Shown piece by piece: positions 3,247 to 61,802 of a stretch of 64,000 nucleotides of DNA; positions within the stretch are counted from its first letter, which is position 1; the number at the start of each line of letters is the position of its first letter. This DNA comes from Antrihabitans auranticaus (GTDB lineage Bacteria > Actinomycetota > Actinomycetes > Mycobacteriales > Mycobacteriaceae). The notes under the pieces were generated by a model that saw nothing but the letters and a program-made list of their open reading frames with translations, had not been told where the DNA came from and made no database searches. The position numbers were made by a program, and so were the translations under genes. The DNA lies in contig NZ_JAEMNW010000001.1 in the NCBI RefSeq assembly GCF_016481275.1, positions 310,001-374,000 on the forward strand, given 5' to 3'.

Positions 3247-4011
3247 TCATGTCGCACTCTCCACCGCCGCCGTCACAGGGTCCAATTCTGCAGCCGCCAT
3301 GTCCAATTCTGCAGCCGCCGCGTCCAATTCTGTGCCATTCAGGCACACACTGTCCGCCACCACGGCACCGGCGCGGACGTTCTTCCAAGACATCCTGTGT
3401 TCGCTCGAAGGGCCAAGTGCCGCAAGCGCTTCCAGATGAGCGGGGGTGTTGTAGCCCTTGTGCGTTGCGAACTCGTAGCCAGGCATCTTCGCGTCGAGTT
3501 CGACCATGAAGCGGTCGCGCGTCACCTTCGCCAAAATGCTCGCGGCAGCGATGCACGCGGCCGTCGCGTCGCCGCCTATCACGGGCAACGACGGCACCGC
3601 AAGACCGGGAACGCGGAACCCGTCCGACAGCACGTAGCCGGGCTGCGTTTTCAGACCCGCGATCGCACGCCGCATGCCCTCGATATTGGCGACGTGAATG
3701 CCGATCGAGTCGATCTCCCAGGCAGGAATGGACACGACCTGCCAGGCCAGCGCCAGCCGCTTGATCACTGGGAACAGCTCTTCGCGGGCACGCTCGGTCA
3801 GCTTCTTCGAATCGTCCAAACCTGCAAGCGCCGCATACGGTTTCGGCGGCAGCAGGCAGGCTGCGACGACGAGCGGACCGGCGCACGAGCCCCGCCCCGC
3901 CTCGTCGACGCCGGCAACCGGACCGAGCCCGCTCCTGATGAGCGCAGACTCCAGAGTCCGCAATCCCGTGGATTTGCGGATGACGGTTCGCGGCGGCCAC
4001 ACCATAGGCAT
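3247..4011 (-). CDS. rnhB: Ribonuclease HII
   Basis: RNase HII cleaves RNA in RNA-DNA hybrids and starts removal of misincorporated ribonucleotides. Of 254 residues, the catalytic motif VDEAGRG places Asp36 and Glu37; further motifs are GLDDSKKLT, the Asp in VLSDGF and [14 protein letters not shown] with the last catalytic Asp. The C-terminus carries an alanine-rich extension, roughly the last 30 residues, made of [14 protein letters not shown] repeats that come from a 21-bp tandem DNA repeat and are unlikely to be catalytic. It ends three bases upstream of the lepB stop side and follows lepB in the operon. Confidence 0.95.
3280..3332. repeat. 21-bp tandem repeat inside the 3' end of rnhB
   Basis: Units at 3280-3300 and 3301-3321 differ only in their last two bases; a third partial unit GTCCAATTCTG runs 3322-3332. 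The unit is a multiple of three, so the array adds heptapeptide repeats (AELD plus alanines) to the RNase HII tail without shifting the frame. Copy number may vary between strains by slippage. Confidence 0.85.
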
Positions 4012-4013
4012 GT

Positions 4014-4859
4014 CTAGTTCTGGTCGATGTCCGGTGAGCTGATCGTGCCCATCCGGCCCGGCGGCAAAATGATGAACACGGCCTTACCGCGCACGTTGTC
4101 GACGGGAACCGTGCCTTGCAGTTCGTCGGACACGTGATAGCGCGAATCCTTGGAATCGAGGCGGTTGTCGCCCATCACCCACAGATTCCCGTCCGGCACC
4201 GTGATCGGCCCGAATTCCCGGCCGAGGCAGGGATTCACCTGCTTGACCGGGTTCAGGAGGCTGTTGTCGAGATACGGCTCGTCGAGCAACTTGCCGTTGA
4301 CCGTCACGCCGCCCTCTGAGTTACGGCACTGGACCGTCTGCCCGCCCGTTGCAATGACGCGCTTGACGAGGTTGTTCTCGTCCGGCGGGACCACACCCAG
4401 GACCGAGCCGATGTTCTGCAAACCGCGCACAACAACATTGTCCGACCGAATCGACTGATACCCATCGTTCCAGGACGGCGGACCGAGGAAGACGACCACC
4501 TCGCCCGGCTTCGGATCCCGGAAGCGGTAGCTGATCTTCTGCACGATGATCCGGTCGCCCGTGCAGCCAGGGCAGCCGTGGAGCGTCGGTTCCATCGATT
4601 GCGATGGAATCAGATACACGCGAGCGACGAAAGTCTGGAGCAGGAAGCTCAGCAGCAGTGCGACTGCGATGAGAATCGGCAGCTCGCGAAGGAACGAGCG
4701 CGGTTTGCCCGACTTGTCTTTCTTCTTCGATGCCGCTACCGCGTCCGCGTTGCCGTCGTCGGTCGTCATCGAAGAGTCGGGTGATTCGCCTTCTGCGCCA
4801 GCCCTATCGGCTGCCGACGCGGACGTCGAATCATCCGGACCTGCTTGGTTGTCTGCCAC
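4014..4859 (-). CDS. lepB: Signal peptidase I
   Basis: Type I signal peptidase that cleaves secretory signal peptides at the outer face of the membrane. With the GTG at 4859 the protein has 281 residues: a cytoplasmic acidic/Lys-rich N-terminus, one membrane anchor (about 60-82), the catalytic serine in PSQSMEPTL (Ser88), and the catalytic lysine in [10 protein letters not shown] (Lys166), then the box-E-like [12 protein letters not shown]. The frame stays open to 4907, but that part would read through the hairpin that ends rplS, so the GTG is preferred; a TAACCT hexamer lies seven bases upstream, suggesting a leaderless transcript. Lies between rplS and rnhB as in mycobacteria. Confidence 0.95.
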
Positions 4860-4866
4860 GAGAGAC

Positions 4867-4872
4867 AGGTTA
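4867..4872 (-). promoter_or_regulatory. Putative -10 element of a leaderless lepB promoter
   Basis: TAACCT (TANNNT pattern) is followed by seven bases and then the lepB GTG; there is no Shine-Dalgarno sequence. This spacing is typical of leaderless actinobacterial transcripts. It directly abuts the terminator-like hairpin at 4872-4895, so lepB may start anew after rplS. Confidence 0.4.
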
Positions 4873-4895
4873 GCCCGGCTCGAACGAGCCGGGCT
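4872..4895 (-). terminator. Hairpin between rplS and lepB
   Basis: Perfect 11-bp inverted repeat AGCCCGGCTCG / CGAGCCGGGCT with only two bases between the arms. It lacks a T-tract, as many actinobacterial terminators do. It separates the highly expressed rplS from lepB. Confidence 0.6.
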
Positions 4896-4954
4896 TCCTG
4901 GGAACACTTACGGCGCGGTGCGCCAGAAGATCGCTGAATCGCTTACGCGACGGA

Positions 4955-5296
4955 TCAGCGCTTTTCCTTGATCTTGGCGGCCTTGCCACGCAGTTCGCGC
5001 AGGTAGTACAGCTTGGCGCGACGGACGTCACCGCGGGTCACAACGTCGATGTGGTCGATGTTGGGGCTGTGGACCGGGAACGTGCGCTCGACGCCGACGC
5101 CGAACGACACCTTGCGAACGGTGAAGGTCTCGCGGATGCCACCGCCCTGGCGGCGAATCACAACGCCCTTGAAGATCTGGATGCGCTCTTTTGCGCCTTC
5201 GATAACCTTGACGTGCACGTTGAGCGTGTCGCCGGGGCGGAACTCCGGAATGTCGTCGCGCAGCGACTTTTTGTCCAGGAAGTCCAGGGTGTTCAT
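4955..5296 (-). CDS. rplS: 50S ribosomal protein L19
   Basis: L19 lies at the 30S-50S interface. The 113-residue protein starts [19 protein letters not shown] and carries the family motifs [40 protein letters not shown], and ends in a basic tail ([11 protein letters not shown]). Length is normal for L19. The ATG at 5296 is preceded by AAGGATGACGAT, giving a usable ribosome-binding site; the open frame further upstream to 5425 is not L19-like. A terminator-like hairpin follows the gene before lepB. Confidence 0.97.
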
Positions 5297-5458
5297 ATCG
5301 TCATCCTTGCGTTCGCGAGAACAGAGGAACCTGGTGAGCGAATTCGCTGCTGACCGGTTCGTGCTCAGGTCGGGGTCATGCTGCCGGCACATCGAAACGA
5401 AGAGTGCGTCCAGGCAACCCGTCAATTGTGCCAGACGCCGCCAGCCAGGCGAAATCGG

Positions 5459-6313
5459 CTAACGGTCCGGTGCGTGGGTTACCACGTGCGTCGGTGCAGG
5501 TGGCGCCGCGTGCACCTTCCGCTGCAGTTCCTCTTCGGCGCCCGAGAGAGCATGCTCGATGCTCGGCTTGCCCGCGATCAGGTCCTGAACGTAGATCTTT
5601 GCCCTGATCAACGGACGCCGGATCTTGCGCTCCCGTTCCAGCGCGCGTTCCATCCGTTTCGGCCGATCGGTATACCGCCAACGTGCCCATGGCGCACCCG
5701 GTCGGCTCAACCGAATTGCACCCACGACCAGGAGCGGAAGTACATAGAGCCCGAGCAGGCCGGTCCAGATCTTGCCCTTCGCAATGACGATCGCCGCGAG
5801 ACCGAGGTTCACCAGAGCAGACGCGATTATCGACGCCCTGATCCACGGGCTCGGGTCGTCCCTGAACGTCGTGGGGTTGATCAGTTCCAGCGGGCGCAAT
5901 CCGAGGAGCAGCAGCGCCGTGACCGCAATCGCGACGAATACGGCATCGACCGACGCACGGCCCTCTTCCTCCCAATAGACGTCTTTCAGATAGAAGATCA
6001 GCGCGAACTCGTCGAGCACCAGCGCCGCACCGGCGCCGAAGATGGCAGCCAGCCAGGCGCCGCTGGTCTGGGTGCCGTCTTCGTAGATCGCGATGATCGC
6101 GACACCCGAGATCAGCATCGCAATCAGTCCGAATACCGCGTGATGGATGTGGTGCCCATCGGCTACGACGTTGCTCGGCCACCATTTGACCTCTGCCCGG
6201 ATCAGCCTGACGCTGAGCCGGATGAACAGAAATCCGACGATGAAACCGATCAGGAAGCACAGCAGCGGCAGTCGGCCGTGAGCGATGATCTCGTCTTCGA
6301 GCCACCTGCGCAT
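5459..6313 (-). CDS. Conserved multi-pass membrane protein with HHxHH motif
   Basis: A 284-residue protein starting MRRWLEDEIIAHGR, ten bases after the tex stop, so probably in the tex operon. About six membrane helices are seen (near 15-35, 59-79, 85-107, 122-140 and two more to about residue 225), followed by a basic cytoplasmic tail. Conserved-looking features are the histidine cluster ADGHHIHHAVFG (His54, 55, 57, 58) at the edge of helix 2 and the acidic stretch LDEFALIFYLKDVYWEEEG. This could be metal binding, but no family function is known to me. The long open frame upstream to 6511 overlaps tex and was rejected as start. Confidence 0.75.
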   Translation of the reverse strand: MRRWLEDEIIAHGRLPLLCFLIGFIVGFLFIRLSVRLIRAEVKWWPSNVVADGHHIHHAVFGLIAMLISGVAIIAIYEDGTQTSGAWLAAIFGAGAALVLDEFALIFYLKDVYWEEEGRASVDAVFVAIAVTALLLLGLRPLELINPTTFRDDPSPWIRASIIASALVNLGLAAIVIAKGKIWTGLLGLYVLPLLVVGAIRLSRPGAPWARWRYTDRPKRMERALERERKIRRPLIRAKIYVQDLIAGKPSIEHALSGAEEELQRKVHAAPPAPTHVVTHAPDR

Positions 6314-6323
6314 GAAATATGCC

Positions 6324-8657
6324 CTACCGGCCGAATCCGGCCTTGCGCAGCGCATCGGCCATCGATCCCGAAGGCGCTGCCTGCGCCGGACCGGATCCAC
6401 CGCGATTTCCGCCGCGACCCCCACCGGCCTGCTTTGCGGGCGGCTGCCCGGTCGGCTTTCCGCGACGCGCAGCCGCCGGTCGCCCACGGTCGGGTTGTGG
6501 CGCGGCGGCACCGACCTCGTCGTCCAGTCGCAAAGTGAGCCCGATGCGCTGCCGGGGAATGTCGACGTCGACGACCTTCACGCGGACGACGTCTCCCGAC
6601 TTCACGACCTCGCGCGGATCCTTGACGAAGTTGTGCGACATCGCCGACACGTGGACCAGGCCGTCCTGATGCACGCCGATGTCGACGAACGCGCCGAAGG
6701 CCGCGACGTTCGTGACCACACCTTCCAGGGTCATGCCCGGTTTGAGGTCGGCGACCTTCTCGATTCCAGCGGCGAACGTCGCAGTCTTGAATTCGGGACG
6801 TGGGTCACGACCCGGCTTCTCGAGTTCCGCGATGATGTCGCTGACCGTAGGGAGGCCGAAACGCTCGTCTGCGAAGTCGACGGGCCGCAGCTCGCGCAGA
6901 ACGCGGGTGTTGCCGATCAGCTCCTTCACGCCCTGTCCGGTGCGATCGACGATTCGACGGACCACAGGGTAGGACTCGGGGTGCACCGCCGACATGTCGA
7001 GCGGATCGTCGCCGCCCCGGATGCGGAGGAACCCAGCACACTGCTCGAAGGCCTTCGGACCGAGGCGGGGAACCTGCTTGAGCGCGCTCCGGCTGGCGAA
7101 CCGGCCGCTCTGATCCCTATGCGCGACAATGCTTTCGGCGAGGGACGTCGTGATTCCGGAAACCCGGGACAGCAACGGCACCGACGCCGTGTTCACATCG
7201 ACACCGACAGCGTTCACCGCGTCCTCGACAACGGCACCGAGCGACCGCGCAAGCATCGTCTCCGACACGTCGTGCTGATACTGGCCGACACCGATCGACT
7301 TCGGATCGATCTTCACCAATTCGGCGAGCGGATCCTGCAGGCGGCGCGCGATGGAAACCGCACCGCGCAGCGATACGTCCATGCCCGGTAGTTCCTGGGA
7401 CGCGAAGGCCGACGCGGAATACACCGACGCCCCGGCCTCGGACACGACGATCTTGGTCGGCTTCTTGTCCGGAATCCGCGAAATCAACTCCGCCGCGAGT
7501 GCATCGGTTTCCCGCGACGCTGTTCCGTTGCCGATGGCGATCAGCTCGACGCCGAATCGAGCCACCAGCGCTCCGAGCACGGCGAGTGCGCGGTCCTCCT
7601 GGTGTAGATAGATCACTTCGGTCGCGACCGGCTTGCCCGTTGCGTCGACGACCGCGACCTTGACGCCCGTGCGGTAACCCGGGTCCAGCCCCATCGTTGT
7701 GCGAGTGCCGGCCGGCGCGGCCAGCAGCAGATCCTTCAGGTTCATCGCGAACACGTCGACCGCGTCTTTCTCGGCCGCCTGGCGCAGGCGCATACGAGTG
7801 TCGATGCCGAGGGTGACCTGCAACTTCGTCTTCCACGCCCAGCGCACCGTGTCGAGCAGCCACGGGTCTGCGGGCCGGCCGCGGTCGGCAATACCGAACT
7901 TGGTCGCGATCCGGCCCTCGTAGACCGTTCGCTCCCCCGGACCGGCTTCCACGGCGTCGGGCTCGAGTTGCAGAGAAAGCACCTCTTCCTTCTCCCCGCG
8001 CAGCAGCGCGAGAATCCGGTGCGAGGGGAGCTTCGAAAACGGCTCGGAAAACTCGAAGTAGTCCTTGAACTTCGCGCCGGCTTCTTCCTTGCCCTTGCGA
8101 ACTGACGAACTCACCTGGCCTCGGTTCCACATCGTCTCGCGCAACTCGCCGACGAGGTCTGCGTCCTCGGCAAATCGTTCGACGAGAATCGAGCGGGCGC
8201 CGTCGAGTTGCTCTTCGCTGAACTTCGCGGGGTCGGCGGTCGGGTCGGTGAGCAGCTCGTCGGCGACCGGCTCGTGTCCGGCTTCGCGTGCGATCTGCGC
8301 TTTGGTGCGCCGCTTGGGCTTGAACGGTAGGTAGATGTCCTCGAGGCGAGCCTTGGTGTCCGCAAGCATGATTCGCTGCTCGAGCGCGTCGTCCAGCTTG
8401 CCCTGCGAACTGATCGATTCGAGGATCGCGGTGCGCCGCTCGTCGAGCTCGCGCAGGTAGCGCAACCGCTCGTCGAGCAAGCGAAGCTGGGCGTCATCGA
8501 GTCCGCCTGTCGCTTCCTTGCGGTACCTCGCGATGAACGGGACCGTCGAACCAGCGTCGAGGAGGTCGACAGCGGCGCGAACCTGACCTTCGTCGACTCC
8601 GAGTTCTTCGGCGATGCGGCTGTTGACCGACTTAAGCATTGTCACGGCGGGCAACAT
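6324..8657 (-). CDS. tex: Tex-family S1 RNA-binding transcription accessory protein
   Basis: Tex/YhgF proteins bind nucleic acid and affect transcription and RNA turnover. The 777-residue frame shows the N-terminal helical region (VPFIARYRKEATGGLDD), the YqgF/RuvC-like fold near the middle (TTMGLDPGYRTGVKVAVVD; YLHQEDRALAVLGALV), the helix-hairpin-helix region (VGQYQHDVSETMLARSL; VDVNTASVPLLSRVSGI), and the C-terminal S1 domain (GMTLEGVVTNVAAFGAFVDI). A basic Gly/Arg/Pro-rich tail follows. The true start may be 8657 (ATG), 8645 (GTG, eight bases after a TAATGT -10-like hexamer) or 8639 (ATG, family-like MLKSVNSRIAEEL); none has a clear Shine-Dalgarno site. Confidence 0.93.
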   Translation of the reverse strand: MLPAVTMLKSVNSRIAEELGVDEGQVRAAVDLLDAGSTVPFIARYRKEATGGLDDAQLRLLDERLRYLRELDERRTAILESISSQGKLDDALEQRIMLADTKARLEDIYLPFKPKRRTKAQIAREAGHEPVADELLTDPTADPAKFSEEQLDGARSILVERFAEDADLVGELRETMWNRGQVSSSVRKGKEEAGAKFKDYFEFSEPFSKLPSHRILALLRGEKEEVLSLQLEPDAVEAGPGERTVYEGRIATKFGIADRGRPADPWLLDTVRWAWKTKLQVTLGIDTRMRLRQAAEKDAVDVFAMNLKDLLLAAPAGTRTTMGLDPGYRTGVKVAVVDATGKPVATEVIYLHQEDRALAVLGALVARFGVELIAIGNGTASRETDALAAELISRIPDKKPTKIVVSEAGASVYSASAFASQELPGMDVSLRGAVSIARRLQDPLAELVKIDPKSIGVGQYQHDVSETMLARSLGAVVEDAVNAVGVDVNTASVPLLSRVSGITTSLAESIVAHRDQSGRFASRSALKQVPRLGPKAFEQCAGFLRIRGGDDPLDMSAVHPESYPVVRRIVDRTGQGVKELIGNTRVLRELRPVDFADERFGLPTVSDIIAELEKPGRDPRPEFKTATFAAGIEKVADLKPGMTLEGVVTNVAAFGAFVDIGVHQDGLVHVSAMSHNFVKDPREVVKSGDVVRVKVVDVDIPRQRIGLTLRLDDEVGAAAPQPDRGRPAAARRGKPTGQPPAKQAGGGRGGNRGGSGPAQAAPSGSMADALRKAGFGR

Positions 8658-53598: not shown

Positions 53599-54579
53599 GT
53601 GAGCACTTCCGACGGCGTCGATCTCGACGATTACCACGAATTCCAGGCCGCATTGTCTGCGGCGCTGAAGCTCGAATACAGCCAATTGCTCGATCGTTTC
53701 GGGTTGGCCCAGTATTCGCCAAGTCTCTACTCGGGCCGGTACTTTCGCTCGCGCTTGGCACATCACGCCGCCGGAGTGTCGAGTCCGACTCTGATCGACC
53801 ATTGCAAAGCCCTCGAAATGATGCACACCGCGACGCTCGTGCATGACGACATCATCGACAAAGCTGTGCTGCGCCGCAGTTTGCCGACCCTGACCAATTC
53901 GCTCGGGCCCGACGAGGCCCTGCTCGTGGGCAATATGATTGCGACGCGCGCCATTTCGATCGCGGCTCTCGAATCGCAGCCGTTGACGCGGAGTTTCCTC
54001 GATGCCTACGACCGTGTGAATACCGCGCAGGAGCAGGAACTGCGGTACCGCGGCTACCTCGACAAAACTGCCGAGCAGTATTACGAGATCTGCCGCGGCA
54101 AGACGTCGGCGATGCTGGAACTAGCGCTACTCATCGGCGCGGCCGAGGTCGGCGCGGACCCGGGGACGGAACCACTCGTCCTGGCGGTCCGGGAGATCGG
54201 TATCGCCTTCCAGGTCGTCGACGACTGCGAAGACCTGGTCGCCTGGCTCGAGGGTGCCGAACTGGATCGCAGCAAGAGCGCCCAGTTCGACATCGACCTC
54301 GGTAACTACACGCTCCCGGTGGTCGTCGCGCTCGAGGCTGCCGCGGCCGGCCAGTCGGCGCGTAGCTTGGCGAACGTCGACCGTAAGACGTGGTCCGACT
54401 CCGTGACGCGATCGATGGCAATCGCGTTCCACCACCTGGACCTCGCGGACAGCGAAATCGCCATTGCCCGAAAAGAATCCGACTCGGGCCTGGTTCATCG
54501 AGTCGAGGTCTGGTTCAAGCGTGTTGCCGACGCTCTGCACACCAAGAAGCTGGATCTGGTCGTGCAGACCGACCTCTGA
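53599..54579 (+). CDS. Polyprenyl (isoprenyl) diphosphate synthase
   Basis: A 326-residue trans-prenyltransferase that elongates allylic diphosphates with isopentenyl diphosphate. First aspartate-rich motif in TLVHDDIIDKAVLRR (near residues 77-91), GKTSAMLELALLIGAAE (Lys-Thr motif), and second aspartate-rich motif in FQVVDDCEDLVAWLEG. Unusual: the usual GKRxRP near the N-terminus is YSGRYFRSR, and the G-D after FARM is GNMIATRAI. It is therefore a divergent member; product chain length is not predictable. GTG at 53599 with GGGAG upstream. Its only isoprenoid neighbour is idi, 4 kb away. Confidence 0.85.
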   Translation: MSTSDGVDLDDYHEFQAALSAALKLEYSQLLDRFGLAQYSPSLYSGRYFRSRLAHHAAGVSSPTLIDHCKALEMMHTATLVHDDIIDKAVLRRSLPTLTNSLGPDEALLVGNMIATRAISIAALESQPLTRSFLDAYDRVNTAQEQELRYRGYLDKTAEQYYEICRGKTSAMLELALLIGAAEVGADPGTEPLVLAVREIGIAFQVVDDCEDLVAWLEGAELDRSKSAQFDIDLGNYTLPVVVALEAAAAGQSARSLANVDRKTWSDSVTRSMAIAFHHLDLADSEIAIARKESDSGLVHRVEVWFKRVADALHTKKLDLVVQTDL

Positions 54580-54582
54580 CGA

Positions 54583-55038
54583 CTACAAAATCGCGAAAGC
54601 GACCACGAGGCCGAGTCCGAAGTGCGCCGCCGCGACTATCAGGACCTCCGGAGTGAACGTCGGTGAATTGATGACGCGACCGATGTCGACGCCGGAAACC
54701 AATTCGACTGCACGCACGGCGATGACCTGGGCGATGATGCCGACAAGGCCGAACACGAGTGATGCGATCAGGCCTTCGCTCAATTTGCCCGACGATGCAT
54801 AGATCGCCAGCACCACGATGAAGGACATGCTCAGCATGCCCGAAGCGAGAGCGACTATCGCGTTCGGCTTGCCCTCACGAACGATGTCACGGAGCTTGCC
54901 CGGCGTCGTCAGGTCGATCGCGTAGAACCCGACGATCATCAGAACCAGGCCGATGATCGCGTAGCACACGATCGCACCGACATTCCTGCCGAGCATTTCC
55001 CAGTACCCCGACTCCAACGCGAGTGTGGTCACCGTCAT
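54583..55038 (-). CDS. DUF350 (YjfL-like) membrane protein
   Basis: A 151-residue protein made of two DUF350 repeats, each with two membrane helices: NVGAIVCYAIIGLVLMIVGF and SFIVVLAIYASSG in the first half, ASLVFGLVGIIAQVIAVRAV and VLIVAAAHFGLGLVVAFAIL in the second. The loop FYAIDLTTPGKLRDIVREGK is typical. DUF350 proteins commonly occur beside GspS-like ATP-grasp genes, as here: it is the last gene of proline-rich protein, ATP-grasp, DUF350. The role is unknown; a membrane partner or export channel of the ligase product is a proposal. Confidence 0.85.
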   Translation of the reverse strand: MTVTTLALESGYWEMLGRNVGAIVCYAIIGLVLMIVGFYAIDLTTPGKLRDIVREGKPNAIVALASGMLSMSFIVVLAIYASSGKLSEGLIASLVFGLVGIIAQVIAVRAVELVSGVDIGRVINSPTFTPEVLIVAAAHFGLGLVVAFAIL

Positions 55039-55084
55039 TGCTGTCTCCGTTCGCTTTCTTCTCGGATGTATTCGGTCGGGCGGG

Positions 55085-56251
55085 TCAGGTTTGCGGAATG
55101 CGGTGCGGCACGAACGCCGCGCCGTCGTCTGTCACAAGACCTGACGTCTCGCGGATGCCCAGTCCTGCGGATTCGTCGCCGACGATCCAGGCGCCCAATG
55201 CCGGGCGCATGTCGTCGAACTCCGGCAACGGATCGAGAAGCTGATAAACGAAGCCCTCTTCGCCGTAGATACCACCGGTCGCAGTTTCCATTCCTGCGCC
55301 GACAATCGTGATGTTCGCACCCTCGCGACCCAGTTTCGGCTTACGCACGAATTCGGTGAGTTCGTTCGGCTGATCGAGATATGCGGGCAGCAAGTTCGGG
55401 TGTCCCGGATACATCTCCCACAGAATCGCCAGAATCGCTTTGTTGCTCAGCAGCGTCTTCCAGAGCGGCTCGATCCACATCGTTCCGGGAAGGCTTGCGA
55501 CAACGCGCTTTCCGAAGTCGTCGTCGAGCACCCACTCCCACGGGTACAGCTTGAAGATCGAGTGGATCGACGCTTCTTCGAGGTCGACGAATCGTTCGAG
55601 TTCGGTATCGAAGCCGATCTCTTCGATCGCCAGCGCAATGGTGTCGAATCCGGCTTCGGCCGCGGTCTCCTGCAGGTATGCCGTCGTGACGTTGTCCTCA
55701 CCGGACGCGTCCGCCGACGACCACGTGAAGTGCAGTTCCGGACTCGGTAACGTGTCGCGCAGTTCGCCCCAGCGGGCAACGAGCTTCTCGTGCAACGAGT
55801 TCCACTGGTCGTCTTCCGGGAACAGCGCGGTCAACCAGTGCCACTGCAGGATTCCCGCCTCCAACAACGTGGTCGGCGTGTCTGCGTTGTACTCCAACAG
55901 CTTTGCCGGTCGCCGACCGTCGTAGCGAAGATCGAACCGGCCGTACACGTGGGGGTCGGACCGGCGCCAGGACTCGGCGATGGACTGCCAACTCCATTCC
56001 GGTAGCCCGAAATCTCGGTAGCGCTCGGTGAGGACGACATGCTCGACCGCATTCAGGCACATCGAATGGAGCAATTCGACGTCGGCCTCGACCGCAAGGA
56101 TTTCGTCCATGTCGAATTCGTAGTACACCGATTCGTCCCAGTACGGCCGGGCGTAACCCTGTGCATCGCGAGCGGGCGCGCCGTACACGAGACCCTGTGA
56201 CTCCACGATCTGCTGCCACCCCTGCCGGGGTGTACTCCGTACGCGGCGCAT
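55085..56251 (-). CDS. Glutathionylspermidine synthase-like ATP-grasp ligase (YgiC/YjfC type)
   Basis: A 388-residue protein equal to the ATP-grasp synthetase half of GspS; the amidase domain is absent. Motifs: YGRFDLRYDG and KLLEYNADTPTTLLEAG, MWIEPLWKTLLSNKAIL, FVRKPKLGREGANITIV (nucleotide-binding lysines), ATGGIYGEEGFVYQ and LGAWIVGDESAGLGIRE. The group uses mycothiol, not glutathione, and trypanothione-type metabolism is not expected in it, so a glutathione-spermidine product is unlikely. By operon and family (YgiC with YgiB) it more likely ligates an amine or peptide to another acceptor. ATG at 56251. Confidence 0.88.
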   Translation of the reverse strand: MRRVRSTPRQGWQQIVESQGLVYGAPARDAQGYARPYWDESVYYEFDMDEILAVEADVELLHSMCLNAVEHVVLTERYRDFGLPEWSWQSIAESWRRSDPHVYGRFDLRYDGRRPAKLLEYNADTPTTLLEAGILQWHWLTALFPEDDQWNSLHEKLVARWGELRDTLPSPELHFTWSSADASGEDNVTTAYLQETAAEAGFDTIALAIEEIGFDTELERFVDLEEASIHSIFKLYPWEWVLDDDFGKRVVASLPGTMWIEPLWKTLLSNKAILAILWEMYPGHPNLLPAYLDQPNELTEFVRKPKLGREGANITIVGAGMETATGGIYGEEGFVYQLLDPLPEFDDMRPALGAWIVGDESAGLGIRETSGLVTDDGAAFVPHRIPQT

Positions 56252-56284
56252 CAGATCTGGTCGGTCGATGCAATAGAGGCGGTG

Positions 56285-57112
56285 TCAGGAGCCACTGCTG
56301 CCACCGATCTTGCTGCCCAGGCCGCCACGTTGAATCGTGCTGCCAGACGTGGTCTTGATCGTCGCGCCCTTCGGCTTCACGGTCGTCCCGCCCGAGATCT
56401 TCTGCCCGACGCTGCCGGAGCCACCGTAGTAGTACCGATACTGCGAGCCGGCGATGATGAAGATTCCGTTCGGGCCCGGTGTGCCGCCGCAGTAGCTCTC
56501 GGCGACGATGTCGCCGTCGTCGTCGACGCAGCGCGCCGTCACTTCGTCCGCACTCAATGCCCAATAGCCAAGCGCCACAACACCGACCAGGCCGACGACC
56601 GCTCCGGCGCCGATCAGCCTGCGCTTGGTCTTGCGCTTCTTGAGTCGATCCTCTTCGGCTTGCCTGGCCAACTCGGCTTTGCGCTCCCGAGCCTTGTCGC
56701 GCGCTCGCGCATCCGCGACGGTCTGCGGCTTCCGGCGTGCCGTCTGCGGATCTTGCCTGCGGATGCTGCCACCCTGCGGTTCGGATTCGAGTTGCGGCGG
56801 CTCCCAGCCCGGCGGCGCGGGCTGCCATTGCGGCGGTTCTTCTGCCTGCGGTGCGACGACTGGCGGCTCAGGCGTGGGTGCGGGCTCAGGCGTGGGTGCG
56901 GGCTCGGGCAACTCGGGCTCCGGCCGGACCGCACCGGCGTTCGGCCGCAGCGGTGGCGGCGTCGGAGCCGCGTTGGGCTTCAGGGGCGGGGGCGTCGCTC
57001 CGGCGTTCGGCCGTAGGGGCGGCGGAGTCGTCGGTCCCGCATTCGGTCGCAATGGCGGCGGTACCGGTGGGCGCGAGCCTTCGTCGCGCCGATCGTCGTC
57101 CTTGTCTGCCAC
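56285..57112 (-). CDS. Proline-rich membrane-anchored protein with Gly-rich RGGLG tail
   Basis: A 275-residue protein from the GTG at 57112, immediately after the acyP stop. Residues 15-60 carry four PPL[RK]PNA repeats, then a Pro/Glu-rich region, a basic charged stretch (ARDKARERKAELARQAEED), one membrane helix (GAGAVVGLVGVVALGYWAL, about 170-188), and an outside domain with CVDDDGDIVAESYCGG and YRYYYGGSGSVGQKISGG. The last 40 residues are Gly/Thr/Ser/Lys-rich and include TIQRGGLG, like the RGGFG end of YgiB-type proteins paired with the same ATP-grasp family. It is a plausible acceptor of the ligase; this is inference. Confidence 0.75.
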   Translation of the reverse strand: MADKDDDRRDEGSRPPVPPPLRPNAGPTTPPPLRPNAGATPPPLKPNAAPTPPPLRPNAGAVRPEPELPEPAPTPEPAPTPEPPVVAPQAEEPPQWQPAPPGWEPPQLESEPQGGSIRRQDPQTARRKPQTVADARARDKARERKAELARQAEEDRLKKRKTKRRLIGAGAVVGLVGVVALGYWALSADEVTARCVDDDGDIVAESYCGGTPGPNGIFIIAGSQYRYYYGGSGSVGQKISGGTTVKPKGATIKTTSGSTIQRGGLGSKIGGSSGS

Positions 57113-57391
57113 CTAACGCTCCTCGAATCCTGTGACATCACCCTTCGCGGCGTCCCAGCTTTCCACAACGAGGTCCACTCGTCCGGGAGTGCTGCCCGAC
57201 CGCAACAGTGCGAGTAGCTTGTCACACCGACTGCGAGATCCCTCGGCTATCACGTGAACGCGCCCATCGGACGTATTCGTCGCGTGGCCGGTCAGGCCTA
57301 GTTCGAGGGCACGCGAACGCGTCCACCACCGAAATCCGACGCCCTGCACGCTGCCGTGCACCCATGCGCTGAGCCTGACGATGTCAGCCAT
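57113..57391 (-). CDS. acyP: Acylphosphatase
   Basis: A 92-residue acylphosphatase that hydrolyses carboxyl-phosphate bonds. The active-site loop is GSVQGVGFRWW with the catalytic Arg (near residue 22), and the catalytic Asn lies in GHATNTSDGRVHVIAEG (near 39). Ends in the usual family region, slightly changed. ATG at 57391. It sits between osmC and the proline-rich gene, keeping the acyP-smc neighbourhood of mycobacteria. Confidence 0.92.
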   Translation of the reverse strand: MADIVRLSAWVHGSVQGVGFRWWTRSRALELGLTGHATNTSDGRVHVIAEGSRSRCDKLLALLRSGSTPGRVDLVVESWDAAKGDVTGFEER

Positions 57392-59209: not shown

Positions 59210-59645
59210 TCAGCCGAGCCGGAATTGCGGAAACCAGCCTACGGTCTGATCGATCAGCGCATGCAGTTCGGCGTTGCAAGACGACTCGCCGCCGAACGAG
59301 TCGAGCAGCGTGTGCGTCCGAGCGATCAACGGCCGCAACGATTCCGCATAGCTGTCGATGACACCGGGCGCCAGGAGCGCCTCGCGAAGCATGCGTCGCG
59401 CGTCGGCGGACCGACCTGCCTGACTCGACAGGCGCAGCAGTTCGGCTCGGCGTTCCGGCGTCGCTGCTCGCAGGGCGTGGACGAGGAGGTAGGTCGCGGT
59501 GCCGTTACGCAGGTCTTCGTCGCGTTCGGTGACGATGTCGCGCTGATCGTTGACGATCTGCCGAAGCACGCCGAGCGTCCGCCCGAAGTCACGCCAGCCG
59601 TCGACTCGTTCGGCGTCGCATTGCTCCCGTCCGGCAATCTCTACT
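59210..59645 (-). pseudogene. 3' remnant of a polyprenyl diphosphate synthase gene
   Basis: Only the C-terminal part of an isoprenyl diphosphate synthase remains: DGWRDFGRTLGVLRQIVNDQRD, where NDQRD corresponds to the second aspartate-rich motif, then NGTATYLLVHALRAATPERR and about 90 further residues. The upstream part with the DDxxD FARM site is absent; homology stops near 59645, just before the promoter and start (59706) of the divergent MmpL gene. No convincing start codon is present. I read it as a gene truncated by rearrangement; a short functional protein is unlikely. Confidence 0.75.
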
Positions 59646-59705
59646 CTCGAGTAGGCTGCCTTTTCGAACAGGCGCCCGTGCGCCGTCGAACGGAAGGCAG
59701 CATTG

Positions 59706-61802
59706 ATGGCACGCAGACTTCTTGCCTGGCCCGCAGGCCGGAAATCCAAATGGATCGTCCTCGTCCTGTGGATCATCCTGCTTGCCGTATCGGCGCCACT
59801 CGCCGGAAAGCTGAGTGAGGTACAGAAGAACGACCTGTCCGCCTGGCTCCCAGGCGACGCCGAGTCCGCGAAAGCATTCGACGCCGCCAAAGAATTCGGC
59901 ACCTCCGACGCGTTGCCCGCGATCGTCGTGTATGACCGCGAGGGCGGCGCCCTCGACACGGACTTCGTGAAAGCGACCGCCGACGCAGCCGCGTTCACAA
60001 ACGTCGAAGGTGTCGTGGGTGACGTCGTCGGACCGCAACGATCGAAGGACGGCAAGTCCATCCAGACGATCGTGAACATCTCGCTCGGCGACGCAGGATG
60101 GCAGTCGGTCGCCGAGACCTACGACGGGATGAAGGTGATCACCGAGGAGAACTCGAACGGCCTGAACGCGTACGTGACAGGCCCGGGTGGTTATGCGGCG
60201 GACTCGGGCGCGATGTTCAGCAGCACCTCGGGTATCCTCGGAATCCTCACTGCACTGGTCGTTCTCGTCATATTGCTACTGACCTATCGCAGTCCCGTGT
60301 TGTGGTTCCTGCCCCTGGTCACCGTGATCGGCGCTGTCTCGGTTGCCGAGGCGATCATCTATGCACTTGCCAAGTACGCCGATCTGACGGTCAACATCCA
60401 GAGTGCGTTCATCCTCATCGTGCTGGTGTTCGGTGCGTCGACGGACTACGCGTTGCTGCTCGTCGCCCGCTATCGCGAGGAACTTCGCCGTCACGAAGAC
60501 CACCACGAAGCAATGGCGGAAGCGCTGCACCGCTCGGGTCCGGCAATTATCGCCAGTGCGTCAACGGTGGGTATCAGCCTGCTCCTGCTCGCGCTCGCGA
60601 ATTTGAACTCCACCAGCGGATTGGGACCGGTGTGCGCGGTCGGCATCTTCGTCGGCCTGCTTGCGATGATTACGTTGATGCCTGCGCTGCTGGTCATCTG
60701 CGGGCGCCGGGTGTTCTGGCCCCGCCGTCCCGAGTTCGGTTCCGAACAGCCCGCCGACGGCATCTGGGATCGGGTCGGGCGCGCAATCGCGATCCGCCCG
60801 CGGACCATCTGGATCGCCACCGTCGCCATCCTCGCGCTACTGAGCGTCGGTATCCTCGGTCTGAAGGCCGAAGGCGTGCCGAACCAGCAGCAGTTCACGA
60901 CGGTCACGCAGTCCGTCGAGGGTGAGCGGATCCATACCGAGCATTTCGATCCGGGCGTCGGCGACCCCGCGTACGTCATTTCATCAGCGGAGAACGCGAC
61001 GATCGTGCGCTCTGTAGTGGACCGTGTTCCCGGCGTCGTGCACACCGACGCTGCGCAGATCAAGGACGGCACAGCGTTCACGCTGGTGCAACTGTCCGGC
61101 GCACCGAACAGCGACGAAGCGATGGCCGCGATCGGTGCGATTCGCGACGCCGTGCATCTGGCGGCCGGTGACGAGACCCTCGTCGGCGGCGGCAGCGCAT
61201 TGACCCTGGACATGCAAGACGCTGCGGCACGCGACACCCGGACGATCATCCCGATCGTTCTACTGGTCGTGCTGGTGATTCTCGGCCTGCTGCTGCGGGC
61301 GATCGTGGCGCCGATACTGCTCGTCGCGACCGTGATCGTGTCCTTCGGCGCCGCACTCGGCATCAGTTCACTTGTGTTCAACCACATCTTCCATTTCGGC
61401 GGCGCAGATCCGGCACTGCCGCTGTGGACCTTCGTATTCCTGGTGGCGCTCGGAGTGGACTACAACATCTTCCTGGTCACGCGAGTGCGGGAAGAAACAC
61501 CGAAGTACGGAACGCGGGTTGCGGCGTTGCGCGGACTGTCCTCGACGGGCGGCGTCATCACGTCGGCGGGCTTGGTGCTGGCGGGAACGTTCGCGGTGCT
61601 CGGCTCGATTCAGATCGTCTTCGTTGCCGAGATGGGTTTTGCGGTCGCGCTCGGCGTGCTGATCGATACGTTCATCGTGCGGTCCGTGGTCGTAACGGCT
61701 TTGACCCTCGACGTCGGCAAGAAGATGTGGTGGCCGAGCAAGCTCGAATCGCCGGCAGCCGAACATCCCATCGAGCCAGACCTCGCCGTTGCCGAAAAGT
61801 GA
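59706..61802 (+). CDS. MMPL/RND-family membrane transporter
   Basis: A 698-residue RND-type permease with a 5+5(+2) helix pattern: helix 1 near 18-36 (WIVLVLWIILLAVSAPLAG), a first periplasmic loop of about 130 residues, helices 2-6 (LGILTALVVLVILLLTYRSP; FILIVLVFGASTDYALLLVA), then the same in the second half (TIIPIVLLVVLVILGLLLRA; VALGVDYNIFLVTRVREETP). GASTDYALLLV and GVDYNIFLV carry the helix-4/10 Asp-Tyr pair used for proton coupling. ATG at 59706 with GGAAGG upstream. Substrate unknown; often lipids or drugs. The next gene begins four bases after the stop. Confidence 0.93.
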   Translation: MARRLLAWPAGRKSKWIVLVLWIILLAVSAPLAGKLSEVQKNDLSAWLPGDAESAKAFDAAKEFGTSDALPAIVVYDREGGALDTDFVKATADAAAFTNVEGVVGDVVGPQRSKDGKSIQTIVNISLGDAGWQSVAETYDGMKVITEENSNGLNAYVTGPGGYAADSGAMFSSTSGILGILTALVVLVILLLTYRSPVLWFLPLVTVIGAVSVAEAIIYALAKYADLTVNIQSAFILIVLVFGASTDYALLLVARYREELRRHEDHHEAMAEALHRSGPAIIASASTVGISLLLLALANLNSTSGLGPVCAVGIFVGLLAMITLMPALLVICGRRVFWPRRPEFGSEQPADGIWDRVGRAIAIRPRTIWIATVAILALLSVGILGLKAEGVPNQQQFTTVTQSVEGERIHTEHFDPGVGDPAYVISSAENATIVRSVVDRVPGVVHTDAAQIKDGTAFTLVQLSGAPNSDEAMAAIGAIRDAVHLAAGDETLVGGGSALTLDMQDAAARDTRTIIPIVLLVVLVILGLLLRAIVAPILLVATVIVSFGAALGISSLVFNHIFHFGGADPALPLWTFVFLVALGVDYNIFLVTRVREETPKYGTRVAALRGLSSTGGVITSAGLVLAGTFAVLGSIQIVFVAEMGFAVALGVLIDTFIVRSVVVTALTLDVGKKMWWPSKLESPAAEHPIEPDLAVAEK

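Follow-up and report, generated by a model that had tools for sequence, protein, structure and literature searches.

What does an ATP-grasp ligase of the glutathionylspermidine synthetase (GspS) family act upon in a bacterium whose group has mycothiol as its thiol, and what ties it to the small membrane-anchored protein encoded next to it? The question is raised by three consecutive minus-strand open reading frames (ORFs) at positions 54583-57112 of a 64,000-nucleotide stretch of Antrihabitans auranticaus DNA (contig NZ_JAEMNW010000001.1, positions 310,001 to 374,000; hereafter the window), which encode a protein with a Gly/Ser-rich tail, a ligase and a DUF350 membrane protein. An earlier note, made from the sequence of the window, had described this arrangement and had proposed that the ligase modifies the neighbouring protein or a small molecule, with DUF350 as membrane partner; the gene observation is confirmed and the interpretation is partly supported. 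Our comparisons across bacterial genomes, plasmids and phages indicate that the ligase likely caps the C-terminal carboxylate of its partner's tail with a polyamine such as spermidine. A broader proposal, which we advance only tentatively, is that bacteria and phages share a portable two-gene system that caps envelope proteins C-terminally with a polyamine, and that the RGGxG...-GG/GS tail is a dedicated handle, read before export by a YgiC-type ligase and similar in its end chemistry to the -GG of ubiquitin-like proteins.

A Conserved C-Terminal Tag Accompanies the Ligase

The partner gene (56285..57112, minus strand), for which a role like that of E. coli YgiB is proposed, encodes 275 residues if its GTG start is right, and is separated by 33 nucleotides from the gene of the 388-residue ligase (55085..56251, minus strand), a predicted polyamine or amine ligase of the YgiC type. 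The partner ends in RGGLGSKIGGSSGS, where the tag motif RGGLG (residues 262-266; 56315..56329, minus strand) precedes the C-terminal tail SKIGGSSGS (residues 267-275; 56288..56314, minus strand), which is predicted to be disordered and which we propose as the end on which the ligase acts.

We compared 80 named actinobacterial loci, the best 80 of 593 retrieved with the ligase; in every one of them (80/80) the gene adjoining the ligase ends in [RK]GGxG and a Ser/Gly-rich stretch. The partner is recognised by homology at 76 of these loci, and at the more diverged L077 and L081-L083 by its similar tail. Alignment of the tails, which the earlier note had suggested, places [RK]GG[FLIYWAM]G in all 76 homologous partners, followed by a stretch of 7-31 residues (639 of 786 residues in total are S or G) whose last residue is S in 65 proteins, G in 10 and T in one. 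Position -2 is G in 88 of the 89 distinct actinobacterial tails. The control neighbours of the same loci end differently, the acylphosphatase in R (29/29) and DUF350 only occasionally in S or G (5/72). When a fixed tag criterion was applied near the ligase and on its strand, 97 of 105 actinobacterial loci were positive, against 17 of 7268 opposite-strand ORFs; the eight misses comprise L014, L075, L080, L103 and L106, where the tag falls outside the criterion, L065, where the ligase is cut and the tag is present, and L109 and L110, which were not judged. As far as these alignments go, the conserved element is a short C-terminal tag.

The co-occurrence that the earlier note had proposed to look for is strong in the family to which the window belongs. 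The ligase is found in 55 of 251 genomes, and a profile made from the C-terminal 105 residues of the partner (threshold E 0.001) matches 51 genomes, all of them within the 55, and none of the 196 ligase-free genomes, each of the 51 matches lying 36 to 288 nucleotides upstream of the ligase match. In the other four ligase genomes a diverged tag gene was recognised by eye next to the ligase, upstream of it in three (tails RGGINPGSRGSSSS, RGGINPGGGGSSSS and SGGFG...SSSNGG) and downstream in one (TGGFGGGKATGGSHGG), so that an adjacent tagged gene is present in 55 of 55. The association of ligase and tag has a test value of 5e-49, which is inflated by relatedness. Because the gene set is patchy within genera, gain and loss of ligase and tag go together. 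In one genome (G631) a second tag protein lies on a contig other than that of the ligase (L142, 1433-2017; tail RGGLGRGGGSGS), and is a possible second substrate in trans.

The Ligase of the Window

The ligase consists of one GSP_synth domain (PF03738, E 4.9e-150, residues 12-385 of 388), and no other family was matched. Its relatives of solved structure rank, by bit score, as YgiC (7uk8, 302 bits, E 5.5e-89), YjfC (7uk6, 274), trypanothione synthetase (145) and GspS (97), with identities of 42% to YgiC and 40% to YjfC; within the best 80 of 593 loci, the closest named genomes by ligase are Antrihabitans stalactiti (90%) and A. cavernicola (88%). Eight GspS positions taken to be catalytic or nucleotide-binding (R316, D318, E330, N332, K498, K533, R538 and R598) are occupied by the same residues in the window ligase (R105, D107, E120, N122, K271, K304, R309 and R367). 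Among further GspS positions, S335 and S337 each face a T in the window ligase, E392 faces a D and T446 faces W240. P237 is shared by all 26 aligned YgiC-like rows and is replaced by A in GspS and M in trypanothione synthetase. No amidase domain was detected in the window ligase, the match to NF007801 scoring 126.6 bits, below the cut-off of 882; a GspS-type ligase without amidase domain is thus what the earlier note had correctly read. Neither an export signal nor a membrane helix was seen in it (highest 19-residue hydropathy 1.27), and the enzyme looks cytoplasmic.

The Pairing in Other Bacteria and in Phages

That E. coli YgiB, the partner of YgiC, carries an RGGFG-like end had been stated in the earlier note and is borne out: RGGFG lies near the end of YgiB and RGGYG near that of YjfM, whose end is RGGYGRSSSARGHWGG, and both proteins finish in -GG. 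These two E. coli loci and 17 plasmid loci make up a set of 19 annotated loci, the plasmid sample being 22 places taken from 60 among the matches listed (159 matching records). At 18 of the 19 a partner is encoded at, or within two genes of, the ligase. These partners end in G or S in 17 of 18 cases, against 27 of 123 control genes of the loci, a background at which the last residue alone is little informative; at least six G or S among the last 12 residues are found in 16 of 18 partners and in none of the 123 controls, and a last pair made only of G, S or A together with six or more G or S in the last 12 is found in 15 of 18 and, again, in no control. Outside the 18 stand the unannotated L117, L121, L123, L129 and L130, in all of which the tail was seen by eye, and L114, which has no partner.

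The tail takes somewhat different forms across these bacteria. The Deinococcus partner ends in RGGLTSTARGALSSGG, a lipoprotein-like Geobacillus partner in SGLGSGKSSAGS and two cyanobacterial partners in SGFGSFR[AS]GG[AS]SS; in the cyanobacterial partner family nine proteins were found, seven with the tail, all S-ended, which is too few for statistics. In the partners of distant Vibrio and Pseudomonas ligases the core is absent while the Ser/Gly end remains (AYGKGS, AGGYSSGG). Ten DUF1190 proteins, combined into a profile, retrieved 1205 relatives, of which the 120 listed, mostly from Enterobacterales and Rhizobium, give 71 distinct 30-residue tails; 70 of these end in -GG, positions -3 to -20 being more variable, and the single odd end, RRTVLV, looks chimeric. 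When the last 105 residues of the actinobacterial partner are compared with the DUF1190 profile, about 45 C-terminal columns alone align, and several partners belong to no Pfam family. Judged by these comparisons, the bodies of the partners appear mostly different and their tails similar.

The sole annotated locus lacking an adjacent tag gene, from Azospirillum (L114; ligase at 4016-5167), also has the most altered of the 26 aligned ligases, its eight checked residues being R T A N H R L R where the others typically have R D E N K K R R (five of eight differ), and its sequence suggests that it is probably a dead or repurposed copy. All eight residues are kept in 23 of the 26 ligases, the other exceptions being the two tandem Roseomonas copies (L124, 3968-6318), which read R D E N K K L R and R D D E K K W R.

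The ligase also matches 132 records of a phage collection, a few of which are bacterial by name. In the phages Phosso (of Sinorhizobium), Motura (of Achromobacter), OC (of Ochrobactrum) and 44RR2.8t (of Aeromonas), a tagged DUF1190-like protein with a lipobox-like start is encoded close upstream of the ligase; the DUF1190 match in Motura, at 20.9 bits, is just below the Pfam cut-off of 22. In DSS3_VP1 an ion channel gene lies upstream of the ligase, which stands at the end of the record, and no tail gene is found upstream there; the first gene of this linear record ends in STGGFGRSATASRGGSFGG, and the tag gene would be adjacent to the ligase if the record is a permuted circle.

A larger set of 80 viral-labelled loci, 79 of them with a ligase ORF, was reduced to 60 non-redundant ones, of which 47 satisfied the fixed tag criterion, against 3 of 1613 opposite-strand ORFs, though contigs labelled viral can be mislabelled bacterial DNA. 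On an after-the-fact reading of the 13 misses, a tag was seen by eye in seven (L166, L173, L179, L192, L207, L208 and L215), two (L199 and L235) are doubtful, L172 (DSS3_VP1) has a tag at the other end of the record, and L160, L163 and L216 lie near contig ends.

Some further observations belong to these surveys. Ion channel genes or their homologues lie near the ligase in L105, L111, L113, L119, L121, L156, L199, L218, L234 and L237, bacterial and viral-labelled loci together, and some channels are blocked by polyamines. A 550-residue database protein (P0137) combines DUF1190 with PF02321, the TolC-type outer membrane family, which points either to fused neighbours in the tolC-ygiB region or to a fault of assembly.

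A Proposed Reaction

E. coli YgiC and YjfC are reportedly peptide-spermidine ligases, so described in the title of Pederick et al. (2023; Biochemistry 62:899), and RefSeq gives them the same name. GspS, for its part, activates glutathione at the carboxylate of its C-terminal glycine, to which spermidine is then coupled. In a parallel reaction, the window ligase would use ATP to activate the terminal carboxylate of the partner's tail and join to it a polyamine such as spermidine. The tag would be what the enzyme recognises, and the acylated group would be the free C-terminus, which is -GS here and -GG in DUF1190 proteins. We infer tail amidation with a polyamine because the tag is fixed at its end, is tied to the ligase across phyla and is missing where the ligase is most altered. 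The idea that the ligase acts on the adjacent protein, which the earlier note had left alongside a small-molecule substrate, thus gains from the co-occurrence and the conserved tail, while the covalent step is a prediction; where that note had called for an invariant acceptor residue, the tail likely accepts the amine at its terminal carboxylate and not at a side chain.

A polyamine is proposed as the amine on account of the activity reported in E. coli and because a few loci have polyamine genes nearby; the polyamine theme that Ravi et al. (2024) describe for related operons adds to this. In Motura, a gene annotated as homospermidine synthase, with saccharopine dehydrogenase domains (L154, 1803-3113), lies by the ligase and tag pair, and a homospermidine synthase-like gene is near the pair in 2 of the 60 viral-labelled loci (Motura and L177). 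Since no export signal was seen in the ligase, the modification would take place in the cytoplasm, prior to or during export. DUF350, where present, would aid membrane passage or anchoring, and the modified protein would sit in the envelope with a positively charged tip, which could touch membrane lipids, wall polymers or a channel.

If this is true, the charged tip would be a tethered polyamine with possible effects on membranes, on wall polymers or on the ion channels encoded beside several pairs; a C-terminal polyamine would join the protein modifications of bacteria and of the phages that have the pair; and PspA and DUF350 operons, with their polyamine theme, would acquire a concrete reaction. 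The shared C-terminal tag also names both a target and a position for enzymes of the YgiC/YjfC type. Our literature search, whose scope did not extend to the text of Pederick et al. (2023), found, among the papers listed, none naming a natural target of YgiC or YjfC or a function for YgiB or YjfM. Nor did any listed title or abstract identify YgiB, YjfM or their tails as ligase substrate, although the same study, which is cited in PMC12568646, PMC10948618 and PMC12270671, could hold the idea, or peptide data that contradict it.

Weighing the Explanations

Several observations speak against polyamine capping of the tail. Counts across related genomes are not independent. The tag is also less uniform than the actinobacterial loci alone would suggest: of the 18 partners from E. 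coli and plasmids, only 9 have the strict form [RK]GG[FLYWI]G and 15 have G[FLYWI]G, the motif core is absent from the Deinococcus partner and from the distant Vibrio and Pseudomonas partners, and, besides the background of G and S ends among the control genes, other ends exist, namely -T (L014), -HA (L112) and -A. Four viral-labelled tails (L192, L173, L207 and L208) end in -GE or -GGE, for which trimming of the last residue or use of the Glu carboxylate could account. The two Roseomonas ligases keep a tagged partner despite one or three changed residues.

The gene content of the host also speaks against a simple scheme based on spermidine. In the genome of the window no match was found to AdoMet (S-adenosylmethionine) decarboxylase PF02675 or to nspC, and the sole Spermine_synth match is a membrane-domain fusion in another DUF350 cluster (L134). 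A match to Orn/Lys/Arg decarboxylase is present, and a search of the genome for potA returned 84 matches, none above the cut-off, and is uninformative. Given the absence of PF02675 and nspC matches and the confinement of Spermine_synth to the fusion, the amine in this host may be imported spermidine, or a diamine instead. Topology adds a constraint of its own, as the tail is predicted to lie outside, by the positive-inside rule and two conserved Cys, and many relatives of the partner have lipoprotein-type signals, whereas the ligase looks cytoplasmic; the modification must then precede or accompany export, or else the tail serves as receptor for something that the ligase produces within the cell. 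Finally, the gene pairing is equally expected if the tail merely binds the ligase.

The receptor option would have the ligase make small cytoplasmic peptide-polyamine conjugates, which the tag protein and DUF350 export, bind or sense, the tail being part of a receptor or transporter. Such an arrangement would agree with the action on peptides that a title reports for the E. coli enzymes, with a cytoplasmic-looking ligase beside a tail predicted to be exported, and with the frequent presence of DUF350, but we think it unlikely: it leaves unexplained why the C-terminal residues are the most fixed part of the protein (-GG in 70 of 71 distinct DUF1190 tails) and why a common tail is found on bodies that share no common Pfam domain, and DUF350 was found in only 15 of the 60 viral-labelled loci. 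We give a similarly low probability to the idea that the C-terminus is indeed modified, with something other than a polyamine, be it an amino acid or a lipid or wall amine that would anchor the protein at both ends. ATP-grasp chemistry suits many amines, and RimK is an ATP-grasp enzyme that extends protein C-termini with amino acids, a precedent for such an extension; the partners already look membrane-anchored on their N-terminal side, and the spermidine synthesis genes searched for were not found in the host. Against these points, spermidine is the reported amine of the relatives, a homospermidine synthase-like gene stands by two viral-type pairs, and an enzyme of the cytoplasm would need access to amines of lipids or of the wall.

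It is rather improbable, in our view, that the ligase acts on an unrelated molecule and that the tag is a peptide which docks on the enzyme, or regulates it, non-covalently. Co-occurrence alone cannot separate a docking peptide from a substrate, and the actinobacterial RGGxG core is internal and as strongly conserved as the end; a docking peptide, however, has no need of a fixed end, and yet in actinobacteria the last residue remains S, G or T although the stretch after the motif varies from 7 to 31 residues, and DUF1190 proteins keep -GG. Hardly credible is an ordinary glutathionylspermidine synthetase whose neighbours are there by chance, for all that the window ligase belongs to the same Pfam family and has the same eight checked residues: it scores 302 and 274 bits against YgiC and YjfC and 97 against GspS, it lacks an amidase domain, its pairing with the tag is far from accidental in the 251-genome test, and YgiC is described as lacking Gsp activity in the portion of PMC12506659 that cites Sui et al. 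(2012). The earlier view that the glutathionylspermidine reaction is unlikely is upheld, but the amine reported for the relatives in E. coli is spermidine. Capping of the tail with a polyamine remains the reading that we prefer.

The Partner Protein, DUF350 and the Neighbourhood

The 275-residue partner combines an RGGFG-type tag, a Gly/Ser end, a predicted membrane anchor and a gene adjoining the ligase; no Pfam family was found in it at E 0.01, and no PF06693 (DUF1190) domain was detected. Its GTG start at 57112 is preceded by AGGAG, and the database copy from the same contig (P0001) has 159 residues, beginning at residue 117, an ATC codon, and is without the repeats discussed below. Translation may begin at either place, and the repeats may or may not be translated, the C-terminal tail being unchanged by either choice. 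A transmembrane segment is predicted at residues 166-184 (56561..56617, minus strand), and because nine K or R occur in the 20 residues preceding it and one in the 20 following it, the C-terminus is predicted to be outside the cell. Beyond the helix lies a small conserved beta domain with C195 and C208 (residues 190-254; 56351..56545, minus strand).

An AlphaFold2 model built from 46 sequences has a mean predicted local distance difference test (pLDDT) score of 68, with a long helix at 132-186 and blocks of pLDDT 84-94 in the beta domain; pLDDT falls below 50 from residue 263 onward, and the tail is predicted, from the model, to be free. A fold assignment was abandoned, the model being good only for the small beta domain and comparison with PDB and BFVD giving no match at E 0.001.

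The earlier note had also singled out four PPL[RK]PNA repeats, and these are present, beginning at residues 19, 31, 42 and 53 in a proline-rich N-terminal stretch (residues 19-59; 56936..57058, minus strand) that is predicted to be cytoplasmic and to have no regular structure. As a conserved or functional element they did not survive comparison: repeats of the LRPNA type occur in none of the 76 relatives (L004 has LRPNQ), which marks them, by sequence, as lineage-specific and leaves the C-terminal tag as the conserved part.

The DUF350 gene (YjfL family; 54583..55038, minus strand) follows the ligase after 46 nucleotides and encodes 151 residues with several hydrophobic segments, in agreement with the earlier assignment (PF03994, E 4.2e-19, 69.4 bits against a cut-off of 26, residues 16-150). 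By homology DUF350 is present at 72 of the 80 actinobacterial loci, some of which are cut by contig ends. As an obligatory part it was rejected on its count among the viral-labelled loci (15 of 60), and these counts make it a frequent but optional partner. It was also uninformative for the phyletic link, being present in 142 of the 251 family genomes, many of them without the ligase. A second DUF350 cluster, without ligase, exists in the genome of the window (L134, C1:1444500-1456500, at about 3582-6569) and comprises DUF2617, a lipoprotein-like protein, DUF350 and, joined to a hydrophobic part, a spermidine synthase domain; the lipoprotein-like protein is assigned to DUF4247 by position alone, as in Ravi et al.

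Directly upstream of the partner gene lies an acylphosphatase gene (57113..57391, minus strand), identified by Pfam and by comparison of loci. It is present at loci of the Nocardia, Tsukamurella and Rhodococcus types and missing at mycobacterial or Pseudonocardia loci, and for this reason we exclude it from the system. Polyprenyl synthetase-like proteins are encoded on both sides of the region (53599-54579, plus strand, and 59210-60079, minus strand), the latter match being weak (27.7 bits, cut-off 27). A promoter and terminator scan gave nothing exceeding shuffled sequence, and among the ten window neighbours scanned with Pfam no PspA, DUF2170 or DUF2491 genes were found. Across the loci, homologues of the E. 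coli PspA-operon proteins occur only in L085, L118-L120, L130 and L166, and at no actinobacterial locus.

Comparison with Known Systems

GspS and trypanothione synthetase belong to the same Pfam family as the window ligase, which shares the eight checked residues with GspS, and the joining of a peptide's C-terminal Gly to a polyamine by GspS resembles the reaction proposed here. The window ligase differs from GspS in having no amidase domain and in having P237 in place of A or, in trypanothione synthetase, M; glutathione is also not the peptide to be expected. Enzymes of the RimK type likewise form an ATP-driven amide bond at a ribosomal C-terminus, adding amino acids rather than polyamines. 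A parallel in product comes from eukaryotes, where PMC12270671 describes spermidine conjugated to the -GG end of SUMO and ubiquitin by E1/E2 enzymes, with a mass shift of +127.15 Da for the spermidine amide; the kind of product would be the same as that proposed here, made without a dedicated ATP-grasp ligase.

The closest systems are those of E. coli, where YgiC (7uk8/7uka) and YjfC (7uk6/7uk7) share the ligase family and the eight residues and where YjfL is the DUF350 protein. YgiB and YjfM are like the window partner in adjoining the ligase and in bearing an RGGFG or RGGYG tag, but they end in -GG and the window protein in -GS, and the latter is unlike them in having no detectable DUF1190, a predicted single membrane pass and a proline-rich N-terminal part. 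The window locus is also unlike an operon of the yjfIJKLMC type in that no PspA gene is among the ten neighbours scanned. In the passages of Ravi et al. (2024; PMC11237479) that deal with PspA/YjfL operons, the association of ATP-grasp, DUF350 and DUF1190 genes is described together with a polyamine theme, and DUF1190 is presented there as a metal-chelating lipoprotein, with no mention in those passages of a C-terminal tag or a protein substrate. Against that account, in which the association of the ATP-grasp ligase, DUF350 and DUF1190 is already in print, what appears to be new here is the C-terminal tag that is tied to the ligase.

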